Below the pieces are notes generated by a model. That model searched no databases. It saw only the letters and a program-made list of their open reading frames with translations, and was not told the DNA's origin. Below are positions 17,902 through 60,986 of a DNA stretch of 64,000 nucleotides, piece after piece. The position numbers and the translations under genes were made by a program. Within the stretch, counting starts at the first letter, position 1. Each line of letters opens with the position of its first letter. Source of the stretch: Hysterium pulicare CBS 123377 (lineage: Eukaryota > Ascomycota > Dothideomycetes > Hysteriales > Hysteriaceae). The stretch lies in assembly GCA_000467715.1 (NCBI GenBank), contig AJFK01000199.1:62001-126000 (forward strand), given 5' to 3'.

Positions 17902-18702
17902 TCAAGCACTCCACTCAACCCCCCTCTTCCTCCTCCACTTAGCAGGATCCACATCCGCATAAGTCGTCCCAATAGCCACCTCATCAATCCAAACCTGCCT
18001 AGTCCCCTGCCCGCCCTCCAACGTATCATTCTGATCATGCCACCCATTCGCATACAACCCAACCCTAAAACTAAACTCCGCATCACTATCCAGCGTCGTG
18101 GGCGTGTTGTATATCTCCCACACCTTCTTCCCATCCACCCACACCTTATAATACCCCGTGCCATCCGCCTGCCAGCTCGCCTGCACAATCACCGTATACC
18201 ACGTCCCCCCCACGACAGCCATGAGCGCAGGCGACGGCGTCGTTTCCTCGTGGCAGGTATCGGCGCCGTATTTGAGCCGGCTGTAGAGCTGGTTCCCCTT
18301 CACCCAGATCATACTCGACGGCATCCAATCATCACAGGTGCCCGGCACATGGGTGAAATCAGCGATCCACTGCGCGATGTTGTAGCTCTGGTCACCGCTC
18401 GTGTCCCAGTCCTGCTGCAGGCGGAAACTGAAGCCGTAGAAGCGCTCGTCGCCCTTCTTGTAGCCGTTGTTGACGTAGGCTTCGCTGTGGTAGCGGCCGG
18501 TGTAGTGCGGGGTGAAGATTTGCGTCATTTTGAGCGCCGAGGAGGCTTCCAGGTAGACGTTGTTCACTTCTTGCACTGTGCCTTGGTTTTCTTGGTTAAA
18601 GCCGTCCCAGCCGGCTTTTGTGCCGTGGTTGCTGAAGAGCTGGGTTGCGGTTGTGAGGGTGATTAGGCTTAGGAGGGTGGAGGTGATGGCGTGGGTGAGC
18701 AT
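17902..18702 (-). CDS. secreted glucuronan lyase (polysaccharide lyase family 20)
   Basis: A single exon encodes 266 residues. The N-terminus (MLTHAITSTLLSLITLTTAT) is a typical signal peptide. The mature part has the beta-sandwich features of the heparin-lyase-I-like fold seen in PL20: SSALKMTQIFTPHYTGRYHSE, then FYGFSFRLQQDW, SSMIWVKGNQLYSRLKYGAD, GTWYTVIVQASWQADGTGYY, KVWVDGKKVW, and a final RQVWIDEVAIG strand. Length and layout match the Trichoderma glucuronan lyase, which cleaves beta-1,4-polyglucuronate by beta-elimination outside the cell. A related lyase specificity (for example alginate-like polymers) is possible. It stands alone, with long intergenic DNA on both sides. Confidence 0.8.
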   Translation of the reverse strand: MLTHAITSTLLSLITLTTATQLFSNHGTKAGWDGFNQENQGTVQEVNNVYLEASSALKMTQIFTPHYTGRYHSEAYVNNGYKKGDERFYGFSFRLQQDWDTSGDQSYNIAQWIADFTHVPGTCDDWMPSSMIWVKGNQLYSRLKYGADTCHEETTPSPALMAVVGGTWYTVIVQASWQADGTGYYKVWVDGKKVWEIYNTPTTLDSDAEFSFRVGLYANGWHDQNDTLEGGQGTRQVWIDEVAIGTTYADVDPAKWRRKRGVEWSA

Positions 18703-21700
18703 TTTGGGTTGAGGGCGAGACTACTGCGGAGTCTTGGGTTGGATTTTTGTAGGGGTTTTGGATTGTGAAGGAAGGAAATTGCGAATATAAGCTTGGTGGG
18801 TTGTTGTGTTTCTTCTCTGGAATCCTTGAAGAACTGAGGTTTTGAAGAGGATCCAGCTGCCTTTTATACAACTATCTTTTCTCCAGAGTTCCCTGCCCAG
18901 CATGTCAAGCGGGCCGTCCCCATATGCACCGTCATGTTTAGAAGCCCAGTGTCTATTTCGGCCTCCAGTCCGGGGACTTCTTACGAGACCACGTTCTCCA
19001 TCCAATACCAAGGCTCCATTAGATGCCATGGAATATTCGGTGCAGCTGCACCATTGGTACCTGCACCTACTGATCTCGTATTTCTGGCATGGAAATAGAA
19101 AAACCTGGGGTGTAGTAATCCTGACCTTGTACGTGGCTGACAGCCTGGTTCTCAATATAGCCAGTAAAATCCCCGAAGAGACACCTAGTGGAGGTGAATT
19201 GGACGGGGTTTGTAATCGCACGCAGGCACGCTGGCTGAAGGGAAAGGGGAAAGGTAGGTCAGGAAGCACGGACAATATGCTTTCGTGTAGAGAATGCAAG
19301 TGATTACAGAATCTTGCAGGTGGACAAGTAGAGTGCTGGGAGATCGAATGAGGTAAGGGACTGTTACTTGATACTGGCCATACTGGGAATGGAGGCTTGA
19401 AGGAAAGTTGACCGAGATCATCGTGTGAAACTCAATGGTGAGGTTTCTCACGTCAGATCCGGTTTAAGAGGAAACGCGTTGGGTTCGACTTGTAAGTTTA
19501 CTGATCATTGCGGGCATGACCACAAAACCAAGCCGTAATGGTGAGAAACGAGTGAATACTGTATGAAAGAAGCATAATCTTACTCTCTAGAGCCTAAGTC
19601 GATATCATCTCACCTGTCAATTTGCAACCTCCAGCCGCACCATTACCTAAAGTTTCCTTTCCAATCAATCCGAAAATAGCAACTCCAGAAAAAAGTACGT
19701 TAGAGGCGTCCATGAACAGTAGGTGCAGAGATCAAAACGGACTAGTAGTAGCCACATCCGCTTACTGATCCTTTTTGGCAGTGAACGTGCACATGTCGGA
19801 GCAACGTTCTTGCTATGCCACGGCAGCACGGAGTTCAAATATAGATAAGTGGTAATCATCTGTTGGTGTCTTTCAAGGTCCGAAAGGCTTTTGTGTATCG
19901 ATTACGAAAAGTAGTGTAAGCTAGAGGCGTAATGCTTCTGATGGAGAGGCTTAATCTGTGTGATGCTGGAAGGCTTTATGGAGCTTATGAGGCGCTCGAG
20001 AGGCTTCTCGAGTGAAAACTGTGTGTGCATGTAGCATGATAGATAGAAGGTTCTTCAAGCGTGGGGATGCAACAGTATTGACGTTCAAAAATAGAAAAAA
20101 AGATTGAAAAAGAGATGCCACAAGTTCAGAGATAACCATTAGCATTGTTGAGAACTCCGATTAGAATGTAGTACTTATCCCACTTTCTAACTAGTTGATT
20201 GTTCTTTTTAGTGTTGCAATGAAAGGTCATAGTCAATGAAATGATTCGTATCAATAGAACTGCATGAAAAGCGTCCAGTCAAAACTGGCATGAGTCTTGC
20301 ATCTGCCGAATTTGATCTGGATTCATAGAGCATAGAATAATACAATCGAGGCTTCAATCGGGGAAACCCCGCAGCTGGAGGCTATGAATTGTGATCGATA
20401 GCTGTTGGTGGAGAAAGGGTGGAGCTACCTCCTTCAACTCCAGTGCTAGGGGCTTGCATAGTTCATTTGGGCTCAGTGAAGGCCATTAAAGCCAGTTTCC
20501 CTTACCAAGCCTATCTAGAAAGTGCCTGAAGATACAGAGCCTGAGCACGTATCATTGTCGAAGAGGGTTAAGCTTATGAGCAACACACCCGCATCCGGGG
20601 AAGATAATTGCTTTAACTTAGAACAAAGTTCAGACACCGGAGGAGAATATCTACGGCGCCGTGCGAGTTCGTCGGTGGCAGAGGAATATTTGATGAAAAG
20701 AGACACGGTCAGAAAACATAGTTTGTATCAAAGAAAAGCCGAACCATAATCTAAAAGGATCTCCCCAGCCATGGCTTCAAGCTGACACTTGGTGCCGCTA
20801 TACTACCGCCTCCCGCCAAAAGTATCATAGAACCGACGATTCATGAAACAGCGAAAAGGCATTCGTCCAACCACTACCCCAATTGCCGAACAACTTTATC
20901 TGGTACAGATCTACCGAGGCTGCTCGCCTGCACCTGAGGAGCCTCCCGCCGCACTGCATGCGCTTAAAGCAACGAAAAGATAGCAGTAAAAGAACCCGTT
21001 GAACCCTCCATATCTTCTGAAGGCATGCGATTTCGAAGATAGTAGTACATGATTAAGGGCAAGTCAGACCCAATCCTTCTGATTAAACTGCACCAATTGC
21101 CCGAGTTGATGCCGCGTCTCACCGTCGATCCTTCCCACAGCAGCAAAATCAAACGTCCATCACCATCACACTTCCCACGCACGTCCCAACGATCATCCAT
21201 CACCCAGCCTCGTTTCCTTTGGAAAGTCGGTCCTTTCCCCACTGCTGATTCCAACTACCAGAAACTCAATTCACGCACTGCCGGCATGGTGGGTACGACA
21301 CGATGAGGTGCAGTATGCACATCTTGCGATTTAATTTCAATCGTGTGGCGATCTCATCAAGGCCCGGTGGGAGGGGTCGGACAGGGTTTGTGTGATGAGA
21401 TATGTGATGGGATGGGGCATGCTGATCATGACGAGTACATCTATGGTGAGGGGGATGGCGGTTACAGAGCAGCACAAGAGGAGACGACGAGAAAAAAATC
21501 AGGTTGGGGGCGAATTGGGGATCCGAATATCTGAGTTACGGTTAGGGGAGTCGGTTTGTATGCTGTGTGTGTTATTGCTGCGAGACATGTGAGACTTTGT
21601 AAACGATGCTTGTGGTGGTTGGTGGTAGTGACAATCCTTGATATTGATAGATGAGAAGCCCCATGCGACTCCATTACTTGCAGCAGCAGACAGCCGCTGC

Positions 21701-38090: not shown

Positions 38091-41000
38091 TCATAGGTCC
38101 TCCCAACTGCTATCAATCAGAGAAATGCCGTGTTGAAATTTCTCCCGATTGCGAGTCAGCTCGTCACAGGAGCTGACCGATGATTTGTATATCAAATGAA
38201 GCCGCCGCTCGTCAACCATGTCGATTGTTCTTGTCCTGGTCGTGCAAGACTTACTCGTCACTACCAGTGACCATACGAATCGTGCTACCGCTAGCACTCT
38301 CGACCAACCCTCCCATGCCCCTTCCATACCCGAGGCCAAGGGCAGTCTTTCCAACAGCCGCGGTGCGCTTCGAAGCCCTCACGCCCCTGCCAACAGAGCC
38401 CTTGATGGTGGCAGCAGTGTTGCGGAGCGAAGATGCGGTTATTGGGCGTCCATTGGCGCGAGACGGAAGAGCAGCGAATTCGCGAACGGCGCCATCAACA
38501 TCATCATCGTCATTCTCAGTGGAAGACATGCGGTCCGACGGTAGAGGAGAAGATGTGATATCAACACTGAGAGGCTTGAATGGGAGCTTTGTTTGGCGGA
38601 GACTGGAAGATCCGGACGAAACTGAAGATGAGGGCGACGAGACAGCTTCGGCAATTGTCTTGTTTGCTAGTGATTTGAAAGTCGGAAGAGATTTACGGCC
38701 CGAGGATCTAATTGCTGCAGAATGCTTCTTGATAGCGGAGGAAATGCGTGACAGCTTAGGGGTTGGCTGACGAAGCGCAGAAGGCGCAGGAGTTGAAGCC
38801 CTACGCCCGATGGTCATGTTGATACGTCGAGTTACTGTCGTCTTCAAAGCCCCCGAAGAGCTCTTGCGGACTGTTTTTGAGCGGGCGGAAGAGAGTGTGA
38901 CGGTGGATGACGACCGACGATTGGCACGCTCCGCCCGAGAAGCACTCTTAGCTGCTGCTTCAGCTGCCACCTTCTCGGCTATGGTTTGCTTCGCGGTCTC
39001 AGGCGCAGCGATGCTCTTCTGGACCCTTGATAATGCGGAACCCACAATGGCAGCAACTTTACGTCGCTTATTCGGTGAGGATTGCCCATTAGTTGAGGAT
39101 TTCCCACCCAGGACCTCTTGAGCTTTACGCTTAATGCCCTGAGCTACGGATTTAGCAGCCGCCAAGGATTGATTAACCTGATCCTTAGAATTCGATGAGA
39201 GCACACCACGGCACGATGCTGTGCCACAACGGCATTGCTCAATCTTTTTGCGGGAATACGGGCTGAAGAGTTGTTAGTCACGACCAAAAACTAGACAAGC
39301 GTAGAGGGCTATATCGACTTACTCAAACTTATAGTCGTAGGTCAACTCTTCGCCAGTCATAATACCTCTCGCTCCAGCAAAGAGAGCCATCCGAGGTTCG
39401 CCGGACACAGTCCATTTCTCCATCGTGCAGTTTGGCTCACAGGAATGGTTCACGAAGCGAGCAATACTACCGCGAGTAGCATCAATTATCGTCTTGTTGT
39501 CAAAAGACATCAAGTAGAAGCACTAATCAAGTCAGCATCGCATACATGAGGATTTGCGACAGACAACGAATAATTTAGCGGCGATGGGAATGAAGATACT
39601 GACCTCGTTCTTCTTGTACTCGTGTTTCACCCTCCGCTCAGCTTCTTGCTGTGTGATAATCTCGCCTGCGTACTCGACAATGATCTGGTAGGGTTCGAAG
39701 GTCCTACTGGCTCGAACACCGAACCCACGATCTTTTGTTTGCAGCACTTCAACTCCATAATTGTAGCGGTTGCCTTTCGCCCGCGCTTTCAGATCGGCAA
39801 AGGCACGGTTGCCACATTGCTCTGGCGTTAGGAAACAATTGGAGCTGTCGCATTCGTAGCACATTGCCCGATTATGGCAGTGCTCATCACAACCGTCCTC
39901 CGGTGTACAAATACACTTATCCGTCGTCTGCTTTTGCTTCTTCCATAATGCAGATGCCTCACCAATGAATTGATCTGTATCAAGGTTAGTGATAAGGAGC
40001 GATGGCCAGAAAGGATTAACATACTTTTTCCGAGTTTCTTCCAGCCTGCAGGCTTGACTTTGTGGGGCAAGGGAGAGAACACATCATATGGAAGCTTGAA
40101 GTCTCTCGTATTTGGTGCCGTGAGCAATCTCTCACCAGCGAACATGGGCATTGGGAGATATTTCCTCTCCTTAGTCTTTATTTGCTGTGCAGACTTCCTC
40201 CGCGCCTTGTTTTTACTCTCCGTGAACCGAGCGTCGAATTCTCGGTCTTGGCCGACATACAAGCCTTGCTCCTCCCATTTCTTGGTCTTAGGCTTCAAGA
40301 AAGTCTTTGGTATCTCCGGTTCTGGTTCATCATCCATATTCTGCATTAGGGATGCAAATAACTTTGACCCCTTTGAGCCCGAGGCTGCTCGGGAAGGAGT
40401 GCCGGACTGTTGCATAAATGATCCACTAGTACTGCTCTTGATTGCCTCGAATGTATCCATTCCACTGTCTAACACTTCCCGGCCCTTTTTGCCCAATGCC
40501 GAGCTTGCAGCCGCCATTTTGTTCAGTGTAGCCTCTTTGAGAAGATTTACGCGGGATGATTTACGCCTCTCAGAGGCTTTTTGTCCTGCCTCTGTCCGCA
40601 GCTGATGGCTAGCTGCATCCTCTGGTTCATCTCCATTCAGTATCTGATCCTTGTCATACTCTCCTCCATCGCCGACCAAAGTAGTAGCGCTACCAGGGCG
40701 ATATACATTTTGGCGGTGCTTTTCGAGGTATTTGGTAGGTGTATGAATTGCTGTGCCAGCAAGGATCTGGACGTTGTAAGTAGGGACACTTTTACGCGAA
40801 TTCCGGCCAGAACGGCGTGAAGGTTTATCGTCGGTTTGCTCTTGCTCGGATTGCTGTTCTGGGGGATGGTCCAGTTGCTGTTCGGTTTGCTCTTCGGAGT
40901 GTGCCGCAGCGTGCTTCCCAATTTCTTGCCCAGAGTGCTGCTCCGGTTGTTGGTCGGTTTGCCTGACAGCTTGGACCTCATCTTGGGCAATTTCTCCAGC

Positions 41001-43658: not shown

Positions 43659-45783
43659 CTAGGTTGTACCATTACCCCTCGGCGTCCTATTCACAGGTGC
43701 CGCTGCCCTAGCACTAGGGCCCTGGAAGCTCGGCACCGTTCCACCCACATCTTGCATTTCAACACCTCCACCTTGCGCCTCAGGAACGAGCGGTGCAATG
43801 CGTTTACCCCTGCGAGGGCCGAACCTTTGATCTCCCTCCTCATACTCCCTCTTGAAATGCAGGTAGGTTGGTGGGCGTGGTCGGAGTAGGACAACAGCCC
43901 AATTCTTGAAGAAAGAGCCTTGGGTGAAGGGTCTGTGTCTGTCTTTCTTGAGGAACTTGTGAGAATTCAGGTACTCCCTCGTGGTTTCGCCACGTGCCAT
44001 GAGGAATAAGTGATACCCCCAGAGACTTAACGGGTAAGGTGTGATAAGGATACCGTAGATGGACATGGCGAAGGGGACACGCCATTTGTTGATTGCATGT
44101 CCAAACGTCGTATGGTTCTGTGCCCTCCAGACAAGGAGATGAGTGAGACTTGCACCAAGCAAGAAGAGCCCCAATATAGTACCAGAGGAGATGAAAGCGA
44201 AGAAATAACGGTAGTTGCGACGCCCCATGCAATTGTTTAGCCAGACACAATGGTGATCTTGAGTCTCGACACAATTGTCACAGACACGGCAGTGATGAGC
44301 GCGCGGCGGGCGCCAGATATTGCAGCTTTTGCAATACTTGGTTGGTACCTCCATAGCTGAATTGGGTGAAGTAGCCGACATTACCATGGTCCATTCGGTT
44401 GTGGGTGGGCCCAGGTTGAGAGGGTCGTCATTAGGATTAGGAGGTGGAAATGGATGTAAATTGCGGGGAAGAATCTGTCCAATCGTCAGCTTACGAATGA
44501 GATTACCCACGTGCAGGGCAACTTACTCCCGGATCTGTGACTGAAGCATGCACAAGCGAAGATATACATATTAAAAACAAATAACCGAAAAGAATGGGTA
44601 TCGCGGGTGAGACGTTAAGCCATAGCCATGGCGCACTGCGGTCAGCTATGTTAGGTCATTCTCAGACGTTTCGCATGACACATGAAGGGACTTACGAAAA
44701 ACCAAAGAAAAGTCCGGTAGGTATGAGAATCAAAAGTGCTGTTCCAATATTCACGGGTCTATCCCGGGTATTTTGAAGTCTTCCTCCCATACAAAATACT
44801 GTATTTCCTGAAAAATACTGGAAATTCTTCCCCAGTTCCCGCTTCACAGCTTCCTTTGTAGCCTCTTTTCTGGTTAAACGTGGGGATGATTCGGCAGAAG
44901 ACAGCTTTTCGTGTCCCTGTTGTGGTCGCATCTGTGCAGAGACACCTCCCCGGCTCGGTAAAATGAAACTAGAACGAAAGGAGCGCGGTGATTTACTTGG
45001 TGTTGGCAGTTTGCCCGAATCGTTTTTATGCGTTTTGGAGAGATCGAGATGCGTAGGGCGTGTAGGTCGCTGTAATGGTGTGATACTCTCCCCTCTGCTC
45101 CTGACTGTTTCAGCACCGGTGGGCGTCGTGTTTGCCGTAGTTCGATCAGGCATGTCTCGCTCCGTGATGTCGGTCCCCCTTGATGGGGGAGGCTGGTCCA
45201 AGTCGTGATGAAGTCCTATGGGAGCTCCCCTAACAGTTGGATTTGAACCGATGCTGTGCCGGTACGAATTGCTAGCGGACTCGCTCTGCCCCTCATTGTA
45301 GGCCGATGTTGGTCCAAGTATCGAGGTTGGGCGCTGACCACGTTGTGCTTGCAGTCTCTGAGAGCTCATAGGACGAAAGAAGGCGTGGGAAGTAAGGGAA
45401 GGAACATGCGTCTTGCTCGCTGACGTCGTTGGCCGACTTTGACCTCCCATACTTCCTGCCACACTTCCTGGCCCAAAATTCTGGATACCTCCTCCGCGGC
45501 GCGAAGGAGGTGGATGTTGTGACCATCTTCGGTGGTTCCCGGATTGAGCAGTCGAGATGGATGATGGCCGAGAGGGCGGAAGACCCGGTTCTCCCACAGG
45601 ACCAGTCACAGTCTGTACTCTACTGCCTGTTGAATGGCGATTCTGAGTACCAGGTTGCGGTGGCGGTGCTATGGTTGTGTCTAGGCCTTCAGACGCATTT
45701 TCTGCGGTTGCGCGATGATCTTGTGCTACGGGAGTAGGATTCGATGAGGAATTCGGCGGAGATTCAGACGTCGGAGTTGTCAT
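43659..45783 (-). CDS. erf2: palmitoyltransferase Erf2 (DHHC type)
   Basis: Three exons (45783-44696, 44635-44527, 44474-43659) encode about 670 residues. The first 320 are a long Ser/Pro-rich cytosolic region. KNFQYFSGNTVFCMGGRLQN leads into the first membrane spans (NIGTALLILIPTGLFFGFS and the next hydrophobic segment in exon 2). The Cys-rich domain reads KYCKSCNIWRPPRAHHCRVC followed by the catalytic DHHCVWLNNCMGRRNYRYF, fully intact. Two more spans and a TTRE-type motif (GETTREYLNSHKF) follow. In yeast Erf2 works with Erf4/Shr5 at the ER to palmitoylate Ras. The long N-terminal extension is common in filamentous fungi. Confidence 0.93.
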
Positions 45784-46318
45784 AGCGATTGCGATTGCGA
45801 TACTGAAGCTACAGAAAACTCAGGAGACTTTGGGATTATTACGGCCAGATGCATGACATCGAATTTCGTGGGGTTTCAGTGGAGGGTGGTGAGAGTTTCG
45901 TAAGTGGCCAAGTGGTGAGTGATGACAAAAGCGCAAAGGTGAGGCTGTGGAGAATTAAAGAGGCGTAGGGAGCGGCAGTGTAGATTAAGAAGCATGCAAA
46001 AGAAAGCAATCTCAGCTTCTATAAGCCGGCATCTCTCATTGTAACCAGGATAGGGCTGAGAGTGTTAATGAAGCAAAAGGGGGCGGGTTTTGAATGGTTC
46101 TGCTGCAAGGTCCCATCGTCCTGGCCGCAGCTAAATCACAACGGACAAGCCCCTTGGAACTCCTCCGGACGAGACAGTGCGCGGCATCCTCCGCTGTTGC
46201 ACGTGAATTGTCTTGGCTTCGGTAATGATAAATGAAGCATCGAACCACACCACCTCAACACCACAGCCAGCCATCGCCAGTTCTACGAGCTACCCGAAAC
46301 CTACCAATTGACTACACA
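45784..46318. promoter_or_regulatory. bidirectional promoter region, erf2 and small membrane protein gene
   Basis: 535 bp between divergent start codons. No specific site is recognised. Confidence 0.45.
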
Positions 46319-47041
46319 ATGTCTTCCATCATCGGCCGTACAGCTCTTCGGGCTACTCCTCGTCTCCAGACTGCCCTCCGGCCAACGCTACGCCTGCGAA
46401 ATGAAGTTGGCTCCGTTGCCGGCGAGACTGATCAATCCAAGGGAAGACAAGCATTGCAAAAGGGAGCGAAGAGGGATCCTGAGCTCATAGTATGGCGCTT
46501 CTACTGTATATTCTACGAAAGGAAGCTGACTGGATATCTTCTCACAGATTCTGTTCGCTGTCATGTCGGGAGCTTTCGCGCTTGTTGGATGGCACTTCTG
46601 TACGCCTCACTTTCATCCCCCACCACATTTCATCCACGCTTTAACCTATGTGATCGGCACCACCAACATCACCATACATGATATCACATTAGCAGTCTCG
46701 CAGCTTCACAAATTTTGGAAGATCGTTCTGACAATGACATGATAGCTAGTAATCCCACCTCGAGCAACTCCGAAAACCCAGTATCAAAGGTAGAAGGCAG
46801 CGAGCCATGGAACACGGGCTCATCAGGAAAATATCAATACCACCCCGGTGGTGACACCAGTGCTCCGAGGAAAGATGCTCCGTCTGCATTGAACACTGTC
46901 ATCATTCCCAACGTGAACCTACCAAAGGTATATCAAAATCCACCTTCGGAACTGTCGGATGCCTCTTCGAAATGACCTGCTGATGAATCTATACAGTCAC
47001 TCCACGACCAATTCAACAAATGGGGCAAGGACGGTTACTAA
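46319..47041 (+). CDS. small single-span protein, probably mitochondrial
   Basis: Four exons (46319-46489, 46548-46599, 46746-46927, 46997-47041) encode about 149 residues. The N-terminus (MSSIIGRTALRATPRLQTAL, with further Arg and no acidic residue until about 30) looks like a mitochondrial targeting sequence. Exon 2 encodes one membrane span (ILFAVMSGAFALVGWHF). Exon 3 carries GSSGKYQYHPGGDTSAPRKD and LNTVIIPNVNLPK, and exon 4 gives SLHDQFNKWGKDGY. The even spread of conserved-looking motifs suggests a small inner-membrane protein, perhaps an accessory respiratory subunit, but I cannot name it. Exon 3 uses an unremarkable GATAG acceptor, which is the weakest junction. Confidence 0.65.
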
Positions 47042-48401: not shown

Positions 48402-50176
48402 TCATGGATTTAGATCTTTGTTATCAACAGCCCACTTGGATGTGGTATTTCTGATCTTCTTGCCAAAGAAATACACCGGAAGGCCGAAGAAGCTTACCAC
48501 CCCATAGATGATCGCGCAGATATTTAGAGCGCTCGAGTAGCCCTGGCTGGTAACGAATTTCGTCACGCCGAAGGAGATGCCAAACGAGATGAAGCCGCGA
48601 ATAGCGCAGATTAGCACTAAGATGGCACCAGCGCGCTCGGGATAACTATCGAGAGAGTATGTAAACCCCAGGAGAACGACACTAATAAATCCGAAGAACT
48701 CCGCGGTGTAGGTGATGATGATCGTCCAAGATGACCAGTCCTCAGGGTGGGAACCTGCCTTTCCGAACAGTACCGAGGATACAATCACGATGATTACGGG
48801 AATGATGAATGGGATCAACCGGTTCTCTGGTTCAGCAATACCATTTTTCCTCTTTGCAAGCTGCACTGTGAGCCAGTCTCCGCCATTGCCGAGAAGCGGA
48901 ATCAGGAGCATAGCGACCACGATCTGGCCACTTTGTACGAATCCAAGAGTGGTAAATGCGAAGTCGTAAGGCGGTGCTATCAGGATTTGTGCGAATTCTG
49001 TGACCATGACGACGTAGATTCCCAGAACAGTACTGTTCATAAGGACAACCCACAAAATGTTGGGGAAGCAAATACACTGAAACATGTGGATCCAAGTAGT
49101 AGTGAATGCCTTCCAGTCTGCAGGTCCGTGGTATATTTGAAGATCGTGCTTCAGAGTTCTCGGCCCGTATCGTTCCAGATCTATGACGACACCGTGTTCG
49201 TTCGTGACTTGTAAGATGCGATCTTCGTGGGCCTCGTTGTCGTGAATATGAACAGCGCCCTCGAAGGCGTCAGTTGGGCGGTTGTATCGTGATTCCGGTA
49301 CAAAGAGAAAGGAGAGGATTAGGATGACGCCGTTGAGGATGCCAAAAACGCCATACCACCATTTCCATCCCATGGATTGGACTAGGTAGGTGGATGAGAT
49401 GCCAAGTGCGGCCGTCCCAATAGACTGGATAGCAGAGAACCACGCGAGCCTTGAACTTCTCTCATGCAAAAAGTGGATTTCCTTCAGCACATAATGTAAG
49501 AAACACGTCTCTATGTATGATTCAAAGACAGCATACCTGGATAATCATAGGGCACAAAGCTTCAGATTGCCCCGCCGCTAGAGACAGGATGTCTCTGCCT
49601 GCAATATGAGATCCAAGACTCGTGCTTGCAGCACACCATATGGACCCGACGAGAAGAAACAACGCCGACGCTATAAATACCGGACGGCGCCCAATCGCCA
49701 TGGCTAATGGCATTGAGATAAGATTTCCAATCCCCATAAACAAGGTTGGGTAAGTCATCAGGTCGCTGGCACGGGGATCATTGTTGTAGCTAGCGGAGAC
49801 ATTGGTATAGATGGGGCCCATGCCAGAGGTTATGAGAACACTGGTGATGGAAACTACAAACGCCGTTAGACAAGGCTATGGATTTTTTCGCGTATCAGTA
49901 TAGAGCTTACATAGACCGAGGGTGAAGGTAACAAGCCATTTCCGCCATTGTGGTAGGTTCAGAGGATCTGCACGAGTGAGCAAGGCGTAGATGCATAGAG
50001 AACGATGGTCTTGCATGCAGCAGCATACCTTTCGGGTCTGGAGCTGGAGTAGGAATAAGAACTACCTCCTCGTGAGCAAGGAGATGGACTGTGCCAACGA
50101 CTCCGTGGAGCTTGTCTTTTATATGGAGGACCTCATTGTGTATGGTCAAACCACGCTCTTTGGCATCGATGTCCAT
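48402..50176 (-). CDS. MFS transporter
   Basis: Four exons (50176-50029, 49967-49911, 49853-49537, 49481-48402) encode about 533 residues, a normal size for a 12-span major facilitator. A hydrophilic N-terminus (MDIDAKERGLTIHNEVLHIK) leads to DPLNLPQWRKWLVTFTLGL, the usual entry to span 1. The loop after span 2 reads GNLISMPLAMAIGRRPVF, the MFS motif A region. SMGWKWWYGVFGILNGVILI and LSFLFVPESRYNR end the first half. After a central loop of about 75 residues the second half has six more hydrophobic spans. It resembles fungal DHA1/HOL1-like carriers. Direction and substrate are unknown. It is divergent from the Zn2Cys6 regulator and shares its promoter, which suggests cluster-specific transport. 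Confidence 0.88.
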
Positions 50177-50498
50177 GGTGATGATAGTGATGTATTAGTT
50201 GACGATGACGAACGAGTAGATGAAGGTTTGAAAGGTTGAGGATGTGAAAAGCAAGAGTGGATCAGCCCCTGAAGATATAGATTGTGCGCTCGTCCACGAA
50301 GAGGCATCCTGTACTATGTTTGCCCACAGGACGAGATGGTCCTGAAGGGGCTACTAGGCCAAAAAACTGACATCCGAACCCCAACATGTTCCCCACAGCC
50401 GCTTAAAACGCCATGGCGGGGTGCATGATGGAGAGAGAGCAGCTGTGGTCATAGCCAGAGAGGGCTATACAGGACGAACGGCGAAGGGGCTTTTATAT

Positions 50499-50516
50499 CT
50501 CGCCCGAGCTCGGCCG
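50499..50516. promoter_or_regulatory. cluster element copy 1, CCG-N4-CGG palindrome
   Basis: CTCGCCCGAGCTCGGCCG, with the perfect palindrome CCGAGCTCGG at 50504-50513. An identical 18-mer occurs at 54623-54640. Everted CCG/CGG triplets spaced by 4 bp are a known target geometry for Zn2Cys6 dimers (Leu3 type), so the neighbouring regulator is the likely binder. That is inferred, not shown. Confidence 0.6.
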
Positions 50517-50623
50517 TGCCCACTTATTGAGCAGCGAGCGGTCCCGAATAGTCGGAATTGTGGGGGAGAAGCGGAGGATGCTTGCCGCCCACGGCCCCCG
50601 TGCCCGGCAGCACTTCAGCCCCC

Positions 50624-50633
50624 CGTTCTCCGG
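50624..50633 (+). promoter_or_regulatory. cluster motif CGTTCTCCGG, copy 1
   Basis: A 10-bp motif identical to 54671-54680 in the second divergent promoter, in the same orientation relative to the plus-strand gene and downstream of the palindrome in both. Confidence 0.45.
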
Positions 50634-50705
50634 CCCCCAGCGGCTGCCAATTTACGCCTCAGTCGGCAGCAGATCCTTTGTCATCCTGCCGCTGGAGGAC
50701 AAACA

Positions 50706-53061
50706 ATGTCGCAGGCCATCAGAGACTCGCAGCGCGTCCCACGAAGCTGCATCGAATGCTCGCGCCGGAAAATCAAATGCTCCAAGACCATCCCCTGTAC
50801 CGCCTGCGTAAAGAGAGGAGAATCGCTCTCCTGCGCCCGTGAAGTTGTGCGGGTCAATGGAAAGTTCGCCATGTACGCCTTTCGCTCTTCATTGTCATCC
50901 TGGAGCAGCTTTTGATCCCTCAATGCTTATTTCTGTCTTTATCCCGGCTAGCTGTGCAAACTCGCTGATTCGACTGCGGACCTAGCGCTGTAGATGTAGA
51001 CGCTGGCTCATTGCCAGGCAGTGGAGATATAGATCAGATTCACACGCTTGAAAATGAGAATAAGGGCCTCCGGGCTCGCATCCAGCACCTCGAGGCTCTG
51101 TTGCAACAAGAAGAAAGACTTGATCCGACAGATCCCCTCGCTTCTTTCGCCCCAGGTCCAGCTGTTGATGCATCTCCTTCCCCCCATGACATTCTGTCCA
51201 CTTTCCAAGGGCTTTACATAGACTCTCCGCCCAAGGGCTTTCCCCAGACTTCTCCGGATCCAGGCATCTCCCGGACTGACTATGTCTATTCCATTTTGCC
51301 TATACGAGCTTCAAGCGAAAGAGTCGTGCACTTCTCCTTGAGCACGCTAGGGTGGATTCATTGTGCCTTGAACGCGCCGGCTTTCCTAAATCAACACGAT
51401 CGCTTTTGGCATGCGTTACAGACAAGAGATTTTCACATTCTCGACGACTACAGCTGGATGGCTTTGTACTTTAGTGTTCTTTCCGTCAGTGATAGAGCCC
51501 TCATTGCCCTGTATTACTGCTCACAGCGCCTAGGTAGGAATTTATTTCATGAATGCAGACGATGCAAATAGTATACATTTCCTTCACGAAGGTTTGTCGG
51601 GTCATCGTGGCCCTGCAACGACCGCCGGAGGCGACCACCAGAGTCCTCGAGCCGTATCTCGAGCCTGGTACGAAGCAGTCTTCAAGGAACTCAATTACGC
51701 AGACTTTCTGGGGAAGCCAAAGTTGTCCACGGTTCAAACGCTCGCAGTTTTATCATTGGTACATCGAAACTTGGGAGAGAATGAAAGAGAGTATCTCCTC
51801 CTGGGCGTAGCAATCAATGCAGCGAAGGTGCTACAAATGGATCGCTTAGGCGGGGAAAGTTCGTCACCACAGACACTACTCAAGAACCCATTCTGGGAAG
51901 ACCGAACCCTCCGTGAACTAGGCAGAAGACTATGGTGGACATTAGTCATTTGTGATTGGTATGTCTCCTGGTTATCGCTGATCTTCGTGGATACTCATAG
52001 TCATTAGGATGATGATGCCCATCCGCCCATGTTTGGTGGCGCCGGGATCGTTCAACAGTATTCTATCTGTCGAGGAAGACAATAGTCATAGAGATATCAT
52101 CATACTCGACTCGCCACCTGATACCGCTCAGGGAACTTCGTCCATAAGTCCCCTTGCTTATCATCTCTTTGCAGCTAAGATTGCATCCATCGTTCGGCCT
52201 TACAGGAACCGGAGTAGCAGAGTATCTATGTCCAACATCCGCAATACGTTGCAAGCTCTGGACTCGTTGAGCTTGACTTCTCACCTCTTCATATCAGACA
52301 GTGAAACTTCAATGCAAGAGGACAAACAGCTCTCTTGGGTCAAAGTACAGCGGAGATTGGCTGTTCTTAATCTAGCAATTTGTCGCGTCAACGTTTGCCT
52401 TGTTGCTCTGCCTGAGATCCTTGAGACTGGAGATGACCGATTAGATCTGCAAGCATGCGGTCGACGAGCTGCCCTCACTATTGTGCGAGAATCGAAAAAG
52501 GAGATTCCAGAATACTTTGATAAGTTCTGGGGCCCGCAACACTGCATCCTCTCGGCCGGCATCTACCTTACGCTGGAGCTCATATGCTTTCACAGTACCA
52601 AAACCTCTTCTGAGATTGAGGAGCAGCTCCTTGAAATTCATTTTACTCTTCAAGTTTTACAGACAAAGCATAAAGATGCCCACTATGGATCGGAGGTCCT
52701 GAGGCGGCTCCTTCAGCTTTTTCATGAATGGGATACAAGCCAAAGCATTGGGAGACAGACTTTGTTCAGCATTATGGCTTTCGTGGCATCCTCGAGCGGC
52801 CATTTGGACGATCAAGCTCCCGGTTCTATCAGTGATTTTTTCCGGAGCGGTTCAAATGTACAGAACAGTTTCTCGCAGCAAGTACCGCAGTCACTTGATT
52901 TGGGAGCAATCACGCTGGGAACGCCAATGAGCATGGACATGGAGTCTGCAATGGACTTTAATGGGATTACATTTGATCTTCTCCCAAACCTAACTGGAAT
53001 CACCCATGACTGGTCCACTCAGATTATCCCTGATAGTTTCAACTGGCAGGAGCCATTCTAG
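50706..53061 (+). CDS. Zn2Cys6 transcription factor
   Basis: Four exons (50706-50872, 50986-51533, 51592-51958, 52008-53061) encode about 711 residues. The zinc cluster is at residues about 15-43: CIECSRRKIKCSKTIPCTAC then VKRGESLSC, all six cysteines present. A coiled-coil dimerisation segment (IHTLENENKGLRARIQHLEA) lies at about 75-105. The fungal-specific middle domain spans about 150-420 and includes EYLLLGVAINAAKVLQMDR and LGRRLWWTLVICDW. The third-exon acceptor is uncertain: 51592 gives a 58-nt intron, while a nearer AG gives an impossible 25 nt. The gene shares a promoter with the MFS gene and is probably the cluster's own regulator. Confidence 0.88.
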
Positions 53062-53292
53062 TGTTCAGTCTTGGGTTGTCAATAGCCCGGTATTGGGCTA
53101 CCTAAATAGGCGAAGCTCACCGGAGAGAGTTGGTCTTGCGTCCAAACTGGCTGAAGAATGCTCGGTTATCATATTGGAAGCTCGCGCTACTAACTACATG
53201 ATTGAAGAGAAGTCAATATGACAGACGTGCGAATGGAAAATTGTAGAAGTAGCAAACGATACATGGTAAGCCTCGGTGAGTGAATGCTATCG

Positions 53293-54386
53293 TTAATATG
53301 GAAGCACGCCCGCTAATTTCAACAGCTTGTCCGACTCAACCAACTTCGTAACCGGCTCATCCCTCTCCAAAGGATCAGTCACTTCCTTGCCATCAACCTT
53401 AATAGTAGCCTTTCCATGAGTATACAGATTACAATGCGGCCAATGTGTCGTTGTATACCGGTTGTCAAACATCTCCTTCTTCAGCAAACGATCCTCCGGC
53501 GTCATCCACGCTGCCGGGGTGTATGTCGCATACACAATGGTACGAATGAGATCGGAGTCTCCAAATTGAGCCCAATGCATCTGTCTCGAATCCCACAAGA
53601 TCAGATCGCCTGGCTCGGCGCAGACTTTTACTAATTCGCAGCCTTTCGACTTGTACCACTCCAAATTCTCAGGTGTGAAGGGATGGAAATCTTTGTGTTT
53701 GGCTGTGCGCCAGGGTGTGGGGCCGGAAACGGGGTTCTCCTCGAAGAACGTACGGAAAAGAGGTGCAGAATGCTTCATGACGATGAGACCACCGTCGTCA
53801 GGGCCGGCGTTCGAGAGCTGGACGATACCTTGAACGCAACAGAGGTCCTTCTTGACGGGGTCTTGATCGCAGTGCGGCCAAGGCTTGGAGTCGTAGCTGC
53901 CTACAATAGATTGCGGGAGTGTAATGTTGACGGTATCAAAAGACACGATGAGTTCGTCGGTGGCCCAGAGTTTAGCGAAGGGTTCGGTGACACCGGGCTC
54001 GCTGTGAGAGACGAATTAGTGTAACGCACATGTATAAAGTGATCAGGGAGCTGATTTTACCATCGAACATCCCAAACGTATTTCTCGTGCGCGGCTTTGA
54101 AATGCAGATACATGCCGCCTTTCCAGCTCTGTGGCAGGTTCTCTTTCTTCCATGTTGACTTGTCGTTACGGTCGAATCCAAGGTTGAAACCTTCAAGCCA
54201 TGCGAGGGCGTCGTTTTGGTAACTCTCTGCACGATCTTTTGGAATTGCGTTTTTGATCACGACGTATCCGTCACGATAGAAGTCATCCCTCCAGTCGCCA
54301 TACTTGACGGCCGAGAGGTCTGCTGCTACCTGTGATTTGAGAAGAGCCGTGACCAGAGGTGGGGTTGCAACTCTGGACGGTGCCAT
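53293..54386 (-). CDS. PhyH-type Fe(II)/2-oxoglutarate dioxygenase
   Basis: Two exons (54386-54061 and 54001-53293) with a 59-nt intron encode about 344 residues. Early sequence (WRDDFYRDGYVVIKNAIPKD) is the usual phytanoyl-CoA-dioxygenase-like opening. The iron site is visible: HxD as HCDQD after SYDSKPWP, and the distal His in GDLILWDSRQMHWAQFG, followed by DLIRTIVYATY, whose Arg fits the 2-oxoglutarate anchor. No peroxisomal or secretion signal is obvious. Members of this family hydroxylate or desaturate small molecules and are common in fungal biosynthetic and degradative clusters. It is divergent from the S15-type hydrolase and convergent with the regulator (231 bp between stop codons). 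Confidence 0.88.
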
Positions 54387-54622
54387 TCTGACGAAGAGGT
54401 CGACCTTGTGATAATGTAGTGTTACTTTTGTAATGAAGGGGCTGGGTTGTGATGTTGAAGATTAGTACACAAAGAAGCTGGAGATTTATAGAATTGAACC
54501 CCAGAATCTGGGCAGATGCAAGATACGGGGGCGGTAGAGCTCGCCCGTTACAAGATCCCCACATTGTGAGCAAAGTTAGATAGAATTCACAAAGATGCAT
54601 TTCCTGTTCTCGTGGCGCTCAA

Positions 54623-54640
54623 CTCGCCCGAGCTCGGCCG
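54623..54640. promoter_or_regulatory. cluster element copy 2, CCG-N4-CGG palindrome
   Basis: Identical over all 18 bases to 50499-50516, with the palindrome at 54628-54637. The flanks differ, so the identity is not part of a longer duplication. It sits 230 bp before the hydrolase start and 237 bp from the dioxygenase start. Confidence 0.6.
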
Positions 54641-54670
54641 CTGCCCCAGATTTATGCAGTCCGCAGCTGA

Positions 54671-54680
54671 CGTTCTCCGG
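54671..54680 (+). promoter_or_regulatory. cluster motif CGTTCTCCGG, copy 2
   Basis: Second copy of the 10-bp motif at 50624-50633. It is followed by GGCCC here and CCCCC there, so only the core is shared. Confidence 0.45.
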
Positions 54681-54869
54681 GCCCAACATCTTCGGTAGCT
54701 CGGCCCCTTTCCAACATCATGCGCCAGTTCGATGCAGCATGTCGCAAATCTCCGCAAACTCACGAGTAATATGTTGGTGGGTTCCTTTCACTTATGCAGA
54801 GAAAGTATCAATGTGAATCAACGCTCCCTTGAATTGAATCCTCCTCTTCTTTAAAGCCTACGACCCAAA

Positions 54870-56642
54870 ATGCCTCCTCCGGTCCAGGTCGCTTTACAGC
54901 CAATAGATAAACCTAAGGTAGGACGCAACAACTATCAAGGTTTCAACCCCCGGGAAGAGGTTCTGCCAACAGGCTGGAACGGGTACAACTCTCGCCCGCT
55001 GCCCTGTGATATCCACGTCTCCCACGATGTTGCCATCACAGTCCGTGACGGTTGTACAGTCTATTGTGATATTTATCGACCGGCGAACTCGATCAAGCCC
55101 GTGAGTGCCATAGTTGCCTGGAGTCCATATGGGAAAAAGTTCAACGGCTTGACGATACTGAAAAACTTGCCCTGGGGATTAGGCATTCCAAACGGCGTTC
55201 TCAGCGGCTTGGAGAAATTCGAGGGGCCAGACCCGGCTGAATTCTGCTCGCGAGGCTTCGCGGTCGTGAATGTGGACTCCAGGGGATGTGGAGACTCAGA
55301 GGGGACCATTGCGATCATGGGGAGTCAAGAGGCCGAGGACGGCTACGATGTCATTGAAGCTTTGGCGCGGATGCAGTGGTGCAACGGATCCATAGGCTTG
55401 GCCGGCAACTCTCACTTGGCCATAGTTCAGTGGTTCATCGCTGGCCTAAAGCCACCGTCGCTGAAGGCTATCGCGCCGTGGGAGGCATGCGGGGACCTGT
55501 ACAGAGAACAGTTCGTCCGCGGCGGTGTTTTCGATGCCGGTCTCTTCGATTTCATCATCAAAACCAACATTCAGGGCCAGATGGCCATTGAGAACTTCAA
55601 GGCTATGTATGAAAGAAAACAGAAAGCGGACGCGCCGTACTGGGAAGACAAACGAGCGCCCATCGACAAGATCCAGATCCTGACGTTCATTTCCATGTCA
55701 TACACCAGTTTCGTGCACACGATGGGCTCGCTTCGAGGATGGCTCCAGGTTGATACACCTCACAAATGGCTGCGCATATGCCCTTGGCAGGAGTGGTACG
55801 ATCTCTGGAATTGTAAAGAGTCTGTAGAAGAGCTGGCAAACTTCTTCGATCGGTACTTGAACGGCGTCGACAACGACTTCCCCAAAATCCCGCGTGTCCG
55901 AATAACTCGGCTGAAATTCTCGAGTGACCCGGTGTATGACATTGTAGAGGACGATTTCCCCATCCCACGCACCGAATACAAAAAGTTGTTTCTCTCGTCT
56001 GATAGCAAATTGGAGTTTTCAAGCCCCCCAGAGACCGGAATCATCTCATACAACTCGGAAAAGTATCTCGACTGCGCAGCGTTCACACACACCTTCTCAA
56101 CCCCCACTCATCTAGTTGGTCTCCCGAAAGCCGTCCTTTACATGTCTACGCCAGACTCGAACGATATGGATGTCTATGTCATCATCCGAAAGCTCGATCG
56201 AAACGGCAAACGACTACTGAACCTCAATATCCCTTGGTCCTCGATAGCTTCTCAAGGCGCATTCCCAGATAAGATCGACGAAATCCCCAAGCGCTACGTA
56301 AACAATCTGATGTTCCATGGCGGCTCACTCGGTATTCTGCGCGCATCACGCCGCGCTATCGATGTCTCACGGTCAATGCATGAGAATTACCCCTTTCACC
56401 CCCATGATAAAGACGAGTACATAACTCCAGGGGAAGTGGTGAAGCTAGAGATTGGTATTTGGGCGATGGGGGTGGAGTACGAGGCAGGGGAGAGCCTACG
56501 CGTGGAGGTGCATGGCAACAGTCCTACTTTGCGGGGGGAGTTTGCTGAGGCGGACCCATTTCCGCAGTGGCGTTCGAAGGGAACGCATAGAGTGCATGTA
56601 GGGGGTGATACAGCGTCGCATGTCATTCTACCCTTCGTTTAG
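54870..56642 (+). CDS. alpha/beta hydrolase of the S15/CocE family
   Basis: A single intron-free exon encodes 590 residues. It has the two-part layout of CocE/X-Pro dipeptidyl-peptidase-like acyl hydrolases. The catalytic half includes VAITVRDGCTVYCDIYRP, VVNVDSRGCGDSEG and the nucleophile elbow GLAGNSHLA with Ser181. The C-terminal jelly-roll half includes LVGLPKAVLYMSTPDSNDMD, VYVIIRKLDR, GEVVKLEIGIWAMGVEYEAG and ESLRVEVHGN. The usual elbow GxSYxG is GNSHLA here, so the Tyr after Ser is His. The Asp/His part of the triad lies in a region (MSYTSFVHTMGSLRGW to WLRICPWQEWYD) whose residues I cannot assign firmly. Esters or amides are likely substrates. It pairs with the dioxygenase in the cluster. 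Confidence 0.88.
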   Translation: MPPPVQVALQPIDKPKVGRNNYQGFNPREEVLPTGWNGYNSRPLPCDIHVSHDVAITVRDGCTVYCDIYRPANSIKPVSAIVAWSPYGKKFNGLTILKNLPWGLGIPNGVLSGLEKFEGPDPAEFCSRGFAVVNVDSRGCGDSEGTIAIMGSQEAEDGYDVIEALARMQWCNGSIGLAGNSHLAIVQWFIAGLKPPSLKAIAPWEACGDLYREQFVRGGVFDAGLFDFIIKTNIQGQMAIENFKAMYERKQKADAPYWEDKRAPIDKIQILTFISMSYTSFVHTMGSLRGWLQVDTPHKWLRICPWQEWYDLWNCKESVEELANFFDRYLNGVDNDFPKIPRVRITRLKFSSDPVYDIVEDDFPIPRTEYKKLFLSSDSKLEFSSPPETGIISYNSEKYLDCAAFTHTFSTPTHLVGLPKAVLYMSTPDSNDMDVYVIIRKLDRNGKRLLNLNIPWSSIASQGAFPDKIDEIPKRYVNNLMFHGGSLGILRASRRAIDVSRSMHENYPFHPHDKDEYITPGEVVKLEIGIWAMGVEYEAGESLRVEVHGNSPTLRGEFAEADPFPQWRSKGTHRVHVGGDTASHVILPFV

Positions 56643-56714: not shown

Positions 56715-58744
56715 TCACCCCTGCCTCAAAAAAAGAACTCCTAAAGTCCAGCTCAGAGCCCACATCCCTCCCTCCCCACTTTTCACCACGGCGCCATTAG
56801 ATTGTAATTGTGCACTACCCCTTGCCGTGGTATTCGCCATACTCACTAATCCAGATGCTAACGTCTGTCCCCCAACACCAATTCGCGTTGTAGAATCTGC
56901 AGTGAACGTTGACTCACCACTCCTTTCGACTGCTGAATCCGTATGTTGAGGCGAAGAAGGGAGCGGGATCGTGAGGCCATCGACTATAACTTGTGTAGCA
57001 GACGGAGCGAGAGAAATTGTTGTGCCTCCAATCACGGTTGTTTGACCGTTTGGAAGCGTGCTTGTTGTACCGCTGACTGTGATTATGGATCCTGGTGCTA
57101 ACGTCTGTCCTCCAATAACGATCTGTGTTGCAGAATCTGCGGTGAATGTTGATCCGCTGATTGTGATGACGACTGGAATCGTAAGTCGAGCTGGAGAAGC
57201 AGGGAGCGGGATGTTAAGTCCATTGACTTCGATCTGGGTCGCAGAAGGAGCGAGAGAAACTATTGTGCCTCCTGCCACTATTATTTGGCCGTCTAGAAGT
57301 GTGCGTGTTGAGCCGCCGACTGTAATAATAGAACCAGGTGCAAGGGTCTGTGATCCAATTACGACATCAAAAGCGGTGTTTGGTGTTGGTGCGATGTCAA
57401 GTGTGTTCTGCAGTGTCAATTGTTCTTGCTCAGTCGCATGAGTCCCAAAGCTTAGAGCAACTGAAGGTGGAGTAGCTAGAGCGGGCGGAAGGATACCTGT
57501 TATGGATGGCAAAGGGGCAACCTGTGTTTGCCCTGGAACTGGTAGAGAAAAGGGAGAGGAAGAAGCGGGTGGTAAATTCGGAAGACGAGAGAATATGGAT
57601 ACAGGAGGTGGAAGAGCAGAGCCGCCAGTCTGAGTAGCAGGTAAGAGTACCTGCGAGTGAGAAAGCACCGCCTTTGACATGTCTATATCGAAATGTGATA
57701 ACATCTCAGGCGCTACGGTTTGGGCGGATAGGATCGAACTGACCAGTTGACTATAAATAATATCGAGGTATTGGACCGGTGTACCAGATGGTGAAGTCGG
57801 TGGAGCTAAAGTACGTTGCAGAACAGAAGTGCGTGTCGGGAGGATTAGAGCTCTTGATTGAGGATCAGCAGCTGTAGATGACGCTTTCCGATCCGGAAGA
57901 GCCTTGGATGTTGATGAATCAGATACATATTTCGTTGCTGACATCGTGAGAAAGTGTACGCCAGCCAAGGCTACCAGTGGTCCATTGGCATAGCTATCGC
58001 AATTTAACAAGACACCCTGGTTTGGAAAGTTATCGTCAAGAAATCTCCAATCGAGCACGAAGAAATCCAAAATGGCCGAGTGGGAGAGACCTTTGGGATC
58101 ATATGCGTCGGTTGGAAATGTGGGTTGGGGATATGCAGGGTGGCTAGGCAGGGTGAGCACACCACCGGAAGAGCAAACGCCCTCTGTGGAGAGTTTTCCT
58201 TCCCAGGCAATGTAGTCGCTATAATCAGCCCAGCCTGTTGGGTACGCACTATGCGTCATCAGTGAAGTAGAAGGAGGTGGACCGAGTTGAAGCTATCTCA
58301 CAGGCTTATTGTTGAATTAGGAATATATGGGTTGGTTGTCATCACAGTCCGGGTGCCTGCTTCATTAGTAGGCGGGAGGGTATATCCGGAGGGCAAGTCA
58401 TTAAACAAGGTGGTAGTCGTTGTGCTATTTGTTCGATTGTTGATGATAACCTGGACCGTTGCTGCTGTGATAGTTGCCGTTGGAATGAGTGTCACCCATT
58501 TATCTAGAATTCCACTTGGGTAGGCGAAGGTGCAGTTGTTATGACATGACCCATTCGGAGTGACTATCGTCTGGGTTGGTAAGACGGAGTCGTTGCTGAG
58601 TCGTTGCTAAGTCGATCTGAAGGTTGTCACTACTTGGTCAGTTGGTAAAACAACCATCCCTCATCACTTACGTGCGATGTAGCAGTGACCAATATGGAAG
58701 AATACCAATTGGAAGATCGCAAGAATAGTATTCAAGTTCTTCAT
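56715..58744 (-). CDS. cell-surface repeat protein with signal peptide, frame disturbed by an 11-bp duplication
   Basis: Exon 1 (58744-58672) encodes a signal peptide (MKNLNTILAIFQLVFFHIGH). Exon 3 (58248-56715) encodes the bulk. Exon 2 ends at 58302. With the canonical 55-nt intron 1 (acceptor at 58617), the next frame hits a stop because of an 11-bp tandem duplication (58587-58608). Without the extra copy it would read directly into TQTIVTPNGSCHNNC. An alternative ATAG acceptor (exon 2 from 58563) restores the frame and gives about 622 residues. The protein has the fungal surface-protein layout: a Cys-containing N-terminal part, YPTGWADYSDYIAWEGKL, and two 80-residue repeats beginning QTLAPGSIITV plus a partial third. 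A weakly hydrophobic C-terminus could be a GPI signal. Adhesion or wall function is inferred. Confidence 0.65.
58587..58608. repeat. 11-bp tandem duplication in a coding exon
   Basis: Two perfect copies of GAGTCGTTGCT (plus strand), followed by a partial third (AAGTCG). They lie in the first bases of exon 2 of the surface-protein gene. Confidence 0.9.
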
Positions 58745-60400: not shown

Positions 60401-60986
60401 ATGTCCGCAGATGCCCCGCCGAAGGGTAACTTGTCCGGGCCAGCAAAACCTACGAAGTCTGCCAAGACAGCAAGGGAGAACACCAAATCTGCCAAAGGAA
60501 AGTTAATGGAACCAGACAGGTGCTCTACCTACCAAAGAGGCGGCGAAGGCAAAAACATCCAAATTGGACTTTGAAGTTCGAGTTCCTACTCTTCTTGCCT
60601 CTGTGAAAGACTTGAACAAGGATTTAAGAGACATAGAGCAAAAGCTGTTCAAGATAGCCGAAAAGACCAGGGATACTCTCGGACAAGTGTTTCCTACGAA
60701 GGACATGGACGATCAAGTGCCCATAGAGCTAACAGAATCATGGTCGTCGCTGAAGAAAGAGAAGGGATATCAGAACGTAGCCAGAAGAGCCAAAATATGT
60801 TCACGAATGGCCAAGACGTTGCTTTCAGCGTCGGAAAACGCGGAGAAGGACAAAAGCGCTTTGGATCCGTTTGAGCGTGGACTCTACGGTAGGATCAGGG
60901 AGAAGAAAATTATCGATGGCTCTGAAAATGAAAGCGACGGTCCGGAAGGCTCAGACAAGGAGCCGGAGGGATCCCAGATTGAGTGA
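60401..60986 (+). CDS. small charged hypothetical protein
   Basis: Exon 1 is 25 nt (60401-60425, MSADAPPKG). A 94-nt intron (GTAACT..ACAG) leads to exon 2 (60520-60986), giving about 163 residues. Without this intron the N-terminal frame ends at a stop, whereas the splice gives GALPTKEAAKAKTSKLDFEV. The middle is helical and Lys/Glu-rich (LLASVKDLNKDLRDIEQKLF, ARRAKICSRMAKTLLSASEN) and the last 35 residues are acidic and disordered. I do not recognise it. No signal peptide or membrane span. Confidence 0.5.

Follow-up and report, generated by a model that had tools for sequence, protein, structure and literature searches.

Do four genes of such different families, lying side by side in the ascomycete Hysterium pulicare CBS 123377, work as one unit? 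The question concerns positions 48402-56642 of a stretch of 64,000 nucleotides from contig AJFK01000199.1 (positions 62,001 to 126,000), the whole of which is called the window here. The span holds four intact genes with spliced models: a transporter of the major facilitator superfamily (MFS) on the reverse strand, a Zn2Cys6 transcription factor on the forward strand, a PhyH-type dioxygenase on the reverse strand and a CocE/NonD-type hydrolase on the forward strand. They form two divergent pairs, and each pair shares a bidirectional promoter. The answer we propose derives from an 18-nucleotide palindrome that is identical in the two promoters. The explanation we favour, with a confidence somewhat above even, is that the genes constitute a fungal metabolic gene cluster, controlled by a zinc-cluster regulator of its own and serving the use or detoxification of an acylated (ester- or amide-like) compound.

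The shared element, CTCGCCCGAGCTCGGCCG, lies on the forward strand at 50499-50516, within the 529 bp between the start codons of the transporter and the regulator (promoter 1, 50177-50705), and again on the forward strand at 54623-54640, within the 483 bp between the start codons of the dioxygenase and the hydrolase (promoter 2, 54387-54869). The first copy is about 330 bp from the transporter start and about 200 bp from the regulator start, and the second about 240 bp from the dioxygenase start and likewise from the hydrolase start. The core sequence CCGAGCTCGG forms an everted repeat, CCG-N4-CGG, and a perfect palindrome of 10 nucleotides; the element is palindromic at 14 of 16 positions. 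No further copy with up to three mismatches is present in the 64 kb, save an overlapping reading of the first copy on the reverse strand. When exact repeats of at least 16 nucleotides, more than 200 bp apart, were sought on both strands of the window, the 18-mer and one low-complexity pyrimidine tract were the only ones found; likewise, when segments of 506 bp from the window were compared in 7875 pairs, two pairs shared at least 16 nucleotides, namely the promoter pair and the pyrimidine-tract pair. Shuffling both promoters with dinucleotide composition preserved (n = 2000) gave a longest common word of 15 nucleotides, reached in 3 shuffles. The sharing of the 18-mer between the promoters is far beyond chance. 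Since an identical palindrome of 18 nucleotides sits in both bidirectional promoters, the four genes can be seen as one small regulon, and they are probably switched on together via this common element. A mobile repeat was considered as the source of the two copies and judged unlikely: the window has two of them, both borne by promoters, and their flanks are unlike beyond about 23 nucleotides. Promoter 2 also carries, 66 bp downstream of the element, a partial repeat of its right half, AGCTCGGCC (54697-54717), a possible second half-site.

What protein might bind this element? Everted repeats of the CCG-N4-CGG form are the type of site bound by zinc-cluster dimers. The gene that adjoins promoter 1 on its right (50706-53061, forward strand; exons 50706-50872, 50986-51533, 51592-51958 and 52008-53061) encodes a protein of 711 residues with just such a domain, matching Zn_clus in Pfam with an expect value (E) of 7.8e-06 (26.3 bits, cut-off 21) and Fungal_trans with 1.8e-05. 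The six-cysteine pattern is complete, with C15, C18, C25, C31, C34 and C43 spaced as C-x2-C-x6-C-x5-C-x2-C-x8-C. Matches of the regulator to solved structures are to the zinc-cluster domains of CBF3b, LAC9 and CYP1, all weak. According to the report on LeuB of Aspergillus fumigatus (PMC6221358), this regulator binds CCGN4CGG in vitro, as seen by gel shift and plasmon resonance, and occupies the promoters of amino-acid, nitrogen and iron genes, including estB and sidJ. The spacing within our element is that of the LeuB sites, and a Zn2Cys6 dimer would accordingly fit it. As the putative binding protein, the local regulator is the most straightforward choice, given that its own promoter contains one of the copies and that the identity over 18 nucleotides exceeds what CCGN4CGG recognition needs. 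Promoter 1 contains three CCGN4CGG sites, at 50504, 50585 (50585-50594) and 50598 (50598-50607). Nowhere else does the window have three of them within 529 bp, and 13 of 5000 single-base shuffles of this promoter match that number; both observations come from a post hoc look.

The gene models behind this arrangement were made by joining exons by hand from genomic sequence only. They contain seven introns across the four genes, all GT-AG, of 49-113 nucleotides and keeping the frame, and each of the four families was confirmed by a Pfam match above its cut-off. The preliminary description of this DNA had placed the four genes at these positions, and models and domain matches agree with it; its figure of 231 bp from the regulator stop codon to that of the dioxygenase is exact (convergent region 53062-53292). 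One alternative concerned the transporter, which could be read as frameshifted if its second intron were taken as 35 nucleotides long with the acceptor CATAG, a choice that breaks the frame. The frame is preserved by an intron of 57 nucleotides that has CTAAC as its branch site, and the frameshifted reading was consequently rejected.

The transporter (48402-50176, reverse strand; exons 50176-50029, 49967-49911, 49853-49537 and 49481-48402) has 533 residues and matches MFS_1 (PF07690; 3.3e-25, 89.2 bits), as well as Sugar_tr (3.8e-14). It shows 12 hydrophobic peaks, the first of which (residues 23-41) probably does not represent a membrane helix. Its solved relatives at E of 0.01 or lower are the glucose carrier GlcP (9.5e-12), the drug carrier Qdr2 (8.9e-05) and the plant sugar carrier STP6 (5.8e-04). 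The sequence GPxxGG is the antiporter motif C; judged by eye, it is missing from helix 5. Together with the matches to sugar carriers, this gives a faint hint of import.

The dioxygenase (53293-54386, reverse strand; exons 54386-54061 and 54001-53293; 344 residues) matches PF05721 with 25.5 bits against a cut-off of 22. The residues for iron (H152, D154 and H251) and the arginine for 2-oxoglutarate (Arg262) are invariant in comparison with four prokaryotic PhyH proteins to which it is 26-31% identical. A profile built from these five sequences finds human phytanoyl-CoA dioxygenase as the best solved structure (E 2.9e-06), with no single stretch significant by itself, and gives weaker matches, at E of about 0.0006 to 0.004, to SnoK (0.00055), MysH (0.003), ectoine hydroxylase and pentalenic acid hydroxylase. 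Membership of the PhyH family is supported. Matches of the single sequence to haemoglobin fragments (about 31 residues, best E 0.0012) were dismissed as chance. No peroxisomal targeting signal was seen in the protein by eye.

The hydrolase, encoded by a single intronless exon (54870-56642, forward strand; 590 residues), matches Peptidase_S15 (6.3e-34, 118.3 bits) followed by PepX_C (1.5e-31, 110.4 bits), and its top solved match, by sequence and by fold alike, is SACOL2612 of Staphylococcus aureus (3ib3, 3iii), with E of 1.5e-66 for the single sequence, 7e-154 with a profile, and a Foldseek template modelling score for the query (TMq) of 0.82 over 583 alignment columns. The predicted model, built from 34 sequences, is of good quality and has a mean predicted local distance difference test (pLDDT) of 88.1 and a predicted template modelling score (pTM) of 0.90. 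In the fold comparison, solved X-Pro peptidases come 28th and 29th, at 14-16% identity, so that an identity as X-Pro peptidase was rejected and 'X-Pro dipeptidyl-peptidase' is here the name of a domain and nothing else. What the preliminary description had called an S15/CocE hydrolase therefore stands as an acyl hydrolase, narrowed by sequence and fold to the CocE/NonD type. No signal peptide is visible by eye, and the protein is therefore probably cytosolic.

The active site of this hydrolase needs to be qualified with respect to its family. In the predicted model Ser181 lies on the nucleophile elbow, between strand 171-180 and helix 181-192. The position of the catalytic Asp, after strand 271-277, is occupied by Ser280, and that of the catalytic His, at the end of strand 299-304, by Cys304; both positions were assigned by strand order and alignments rather than by superposition. 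The canonical Asp and His of the triad are accordingly absent from the window protein. Its relatives were gathered from 86 bacterial loci, comprising the best 80 of 574 confirmed ones and six plasmid loci, with close species counted apart; one of the 86 is gapped at the active-site columns, leaving 85 that can be aligned. Ser181 and His283 are invariant in all 85. At position 280, 80 of them have Asn and 2 have Asp, and one more has Asp at 279; Asp is missing from the presumed canonical acid position in 83 of the 85. At position 304, 77 have His; the 8 others have Asn (6), Ser (1) or Ala (1). Judged from these alignments, the Asp has been lost from most of the subfamily, and the usual His as well from a minority that includes the window protein. 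Since most relatives likewise lack the Asp, it is canonical catalysis that is weakened, more than membership of the family. His283 may be the working, substitute histidine, a reasonable suggestion in view of its conservation.

The bacterial relatives also offer some indication of what such hydrolases are used for. Among the six loci whose annotated neighbourhoods were read, the Novosphingobium relative (40% identical) adjoins genes for a ring-hydroxylating dioxygenase, an oxidoreductase dependent on flavin adenine dinucleotide, an aldehyde dehydrogenase and a TonB receptor, and the Rhizorhabdus relative adjoins a 3-hydroxyacyl-CoA dehydrogenase, a short-chain dehydrogenase/reductase and a cyclase-family protein. 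These two neighbourhoods look catabolic and give mild hints of catabolic use. For the Erwinia and Rahnella relatives, the genes nearby encode an MFS transporter, an alcohol dehydrogenase and a TetR regulator. As a separate observation, an IncN conjugative plasmid of Klebsiella quasipneumoniae (locus L003) carries a CocE/NonD gene, 35% identical to the window protein, near IS26 and recombinase genes, and tblastn matches of the same identity (35%) were found in five further enterobacterial plasmids from wastewater. Phage records yielded seven matches, which fall in phage-labelled records of Listeria and Staphylococcus.

Is there a backbone enzyme of secondary metabolism nearby, to which the four genes could belong? 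Domains were scanned in 48 of the 68 open reading frames (ORFs) of at least 130 residues in the window, including all 15 of at least 300 residues. Within this set no domain of a polyketide synthase, a nonribosomal peptide synthetase or a terpene synthase was found, and to that extent the earlier statement that the window holds no backbone enzyme is borne out. No metabolic domain was recognized in the scanned ORFs that flank the cluster. On the left are ORFs 46232-46972 and 44695-45819, both without a Pfam match, and a DHHC acyltransferase; on the right follow a repeat-rich protein, ORF 60507-60983 with sub-threshold matches only, and a DUF3433 protein. The proposal of a four-gene metabolic cluster thus holds in so far as the genes appear as one unit, marked by the 18-mer in both promoters and by flanks in which the scan recognized no metabolic domain. 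The right-hand neighbour (56715-58606, reverse strand) consists of units like GGQTLAPGSIITVSGTTSTLPNGQTTVIGGTTISLAPSATQ, has no Pfam match in the two stretches that were scanned, and is perhaps secreted or bound to the cell wall. Away from the cluster, a polysaccharide lyase gene lies at 17905-18720 on the reverse strand (PF14099, 9.3e-61), and matches to AWS and SET right at the cut-off suggest a histone methyltransferase gene at 39535-40083, also on the reverse strand. The gene content of the window is fungal in character, with short GT-AG introns, Zn2Cys6 and fungal_trans domains, and genes for an O-mannosyltransferase and PRP21; the scan for transfer RNA genes returned none.

How would such a unit function? 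We envisage that an inducing small molecule would activate the Zn2Cys6 protein, the dimer of which would bind the CCG-N4-CGG palindrome observed in both bidirectional promoters and thereby switch on all four genes, including that of the regulator itself. The MFS protein would carry the compound across the membrane, perhaps with inward transport the likelier direction. The probably cytosolic hydrolase, through its predicted nucleophile Ser181, would then cut an ester or amide bond, and the dioxygenase, which possesses the residues for Fe(II) and 2-oxoglutarate, could hydroxylate either the released piece or the parent compound. The net outcome would be an acylated compound that is used or detoxified. 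A bolder version, which we regard as rather doubtful, would make of the locus a self-contained and undescribed pathway, in which a hydrolase with a relocated histidine (Ser181-His283, the usual Asp and His being replaced by Ser280 and Cys304) feeds the PhyH enzyme, all under one regulator acting via the 18-mer.

A number of observations weigh against the proposal of a catabolic or detoxifying cluster. The loose CCGN4CGG pattern is common, with 17 occurrences in the window, so that the weight of the evidence has to be borne by the long exact match of 18 nucleotides. The hydrolase lacks the textbook acid and histidine of the triad, and its activity is not assured. When the window PhyH and MFS proteins were used as tblastn queries (E 1e-3), no relative of either was found in the 86 hydrolase loci, with flanks of up to about 6 kb. 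The search had low sensitivity, as it missed annotated MFS genes in two of the loci, but it does not connect the enzyme types from outside the window. Furthermore, nothing in the neighbourhoods from Klebsiella and Burkholderia points to catabolism. The failure of this search to find PhyH relatives beside bacterial hydrolases would fit a situation in which two independent divergent pairs simply happen to adjoin, with no common pathway. Compact fungal genomes commonly have neighbouring genes in divergent or convergent orientation. Against this stands the 18-mer, identical in the two promoters and absent from the rest of the window, and we consider the explanation by chance improbable.

Could the locus instead be the tailoring and export part of a split secondary-metabolite pathway, or a small biosynthetic cluster devoid of a backbone enzyme, with the carrier exporting the product? 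A regulator, a carrier and an oxygenase are the usual tailoring partners, the scan result for backbone enzymes is compatible with a split pathway, and both the weak profile matches of the dioxygenase to the tailoring oxygenases SnoK and MysH and the presence of the drug carrier Qdr2 among the solved MFS matches agree with this idea. However, the 18-mer is confined in the 64 kb to these two promoters, with no further biosynthetic domain recognized beside them, and the ranking of sugar carriers as the best MFS matches (Sugar_tr, GlcP) is a slight argument against efflux, as is helix 5 without motif C. We hold a biosynthetic role to be unlikely on the whole, while granting it appreciably more credit than chance adjacency. 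It is also conceivable that the palindrome is used by a general regulator such as LeuB/Leu3, with the local Zn2Cys6 protein acting elsewhere, in which case the genes would receive a global input and have no pathway-specific switch. The in vitro binding of LeuB to CCGN4CGG and its presence at amino-acid, nitrogen and iron gene promoters, as given in PMC6221358, speak for this possibility. Yet the identity between the copies extends over more nucleotides than CCGN4CGG recognition needs, the other 15 occurrences of the pattern in the window all lie outside the 18-mer copies, and one site sits in the promoter of the regulator itself; a global regulator thus seems to us as improbable as mere chance adjacency.

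If the reading of a locally regulated cluster for an acylated compound is right, the locus would be a compact regulon of four genes, two promoters and one element, with a single regulator to switch it; and because one regulator would suffice to turn the regulon on, ordinary genetics could reveal the compound that it serves. A further consequence would be that modules of this kind escape cluster finders based on backbone enzymes. The atypical active site of the hydrolase, in turn, poses a question about the CocE/NonD family that can be put to the test, given how widely the Asp is missing among its relatives. As for novelty, a cluster of MFS, Zn2Cys6, PhyH and CocE genes is not described in the titles or abstract openings of the open-licence papers that the literature searches listed, which is no proof of absence and lends weak support to the earlier qualification of the cluster as undescribed.

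In comparison with known systems, the locus shows both resemblances and differences. The hydrolase shares with SACOL2612 a two-domain fold over nearly the full length, the Ser nucleophile and a His aligned to His283, whereas the identity in the structure match is 28% and the His that SACOL2612 has at the presumed triad position is Cys304 in the window protein. The resemblance to cocaine esterase CocE (1ju3 and related structures) lies in the fold (TMq 0.69) and the nucleophile elbow, at 18% identity; where the triad Asp and His are presumed to lie, the window protein carries Ser280 and Cys304. With the phytanoyl-CoA dioxygenase family (PF05721) the dioxygenase has in common the HxD...H iron site and the Arg for 2-oxoglutarate, even if it is distant from every solved member found. 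The element has the CCG-N4-CGG spacing of the DNA site of LeuB/Leu3 regulators, as described in PMC6221358, while the solved matches of the local regulator are other zinc-cluster domains and it shows no sign of being a LeuB. Taken as a whole, the locus differs from the fungal nutrient-use and detoxification clusters with a local Zn2Cys6 regulator in its pairing of PhyH with a CocE/NonD hydrolase, which was not met in open-licence literature listings; it is like them in having carrier, enzymes and regulator adjacent to each other, and in divergent promoters that share a palindrome of CGG type.

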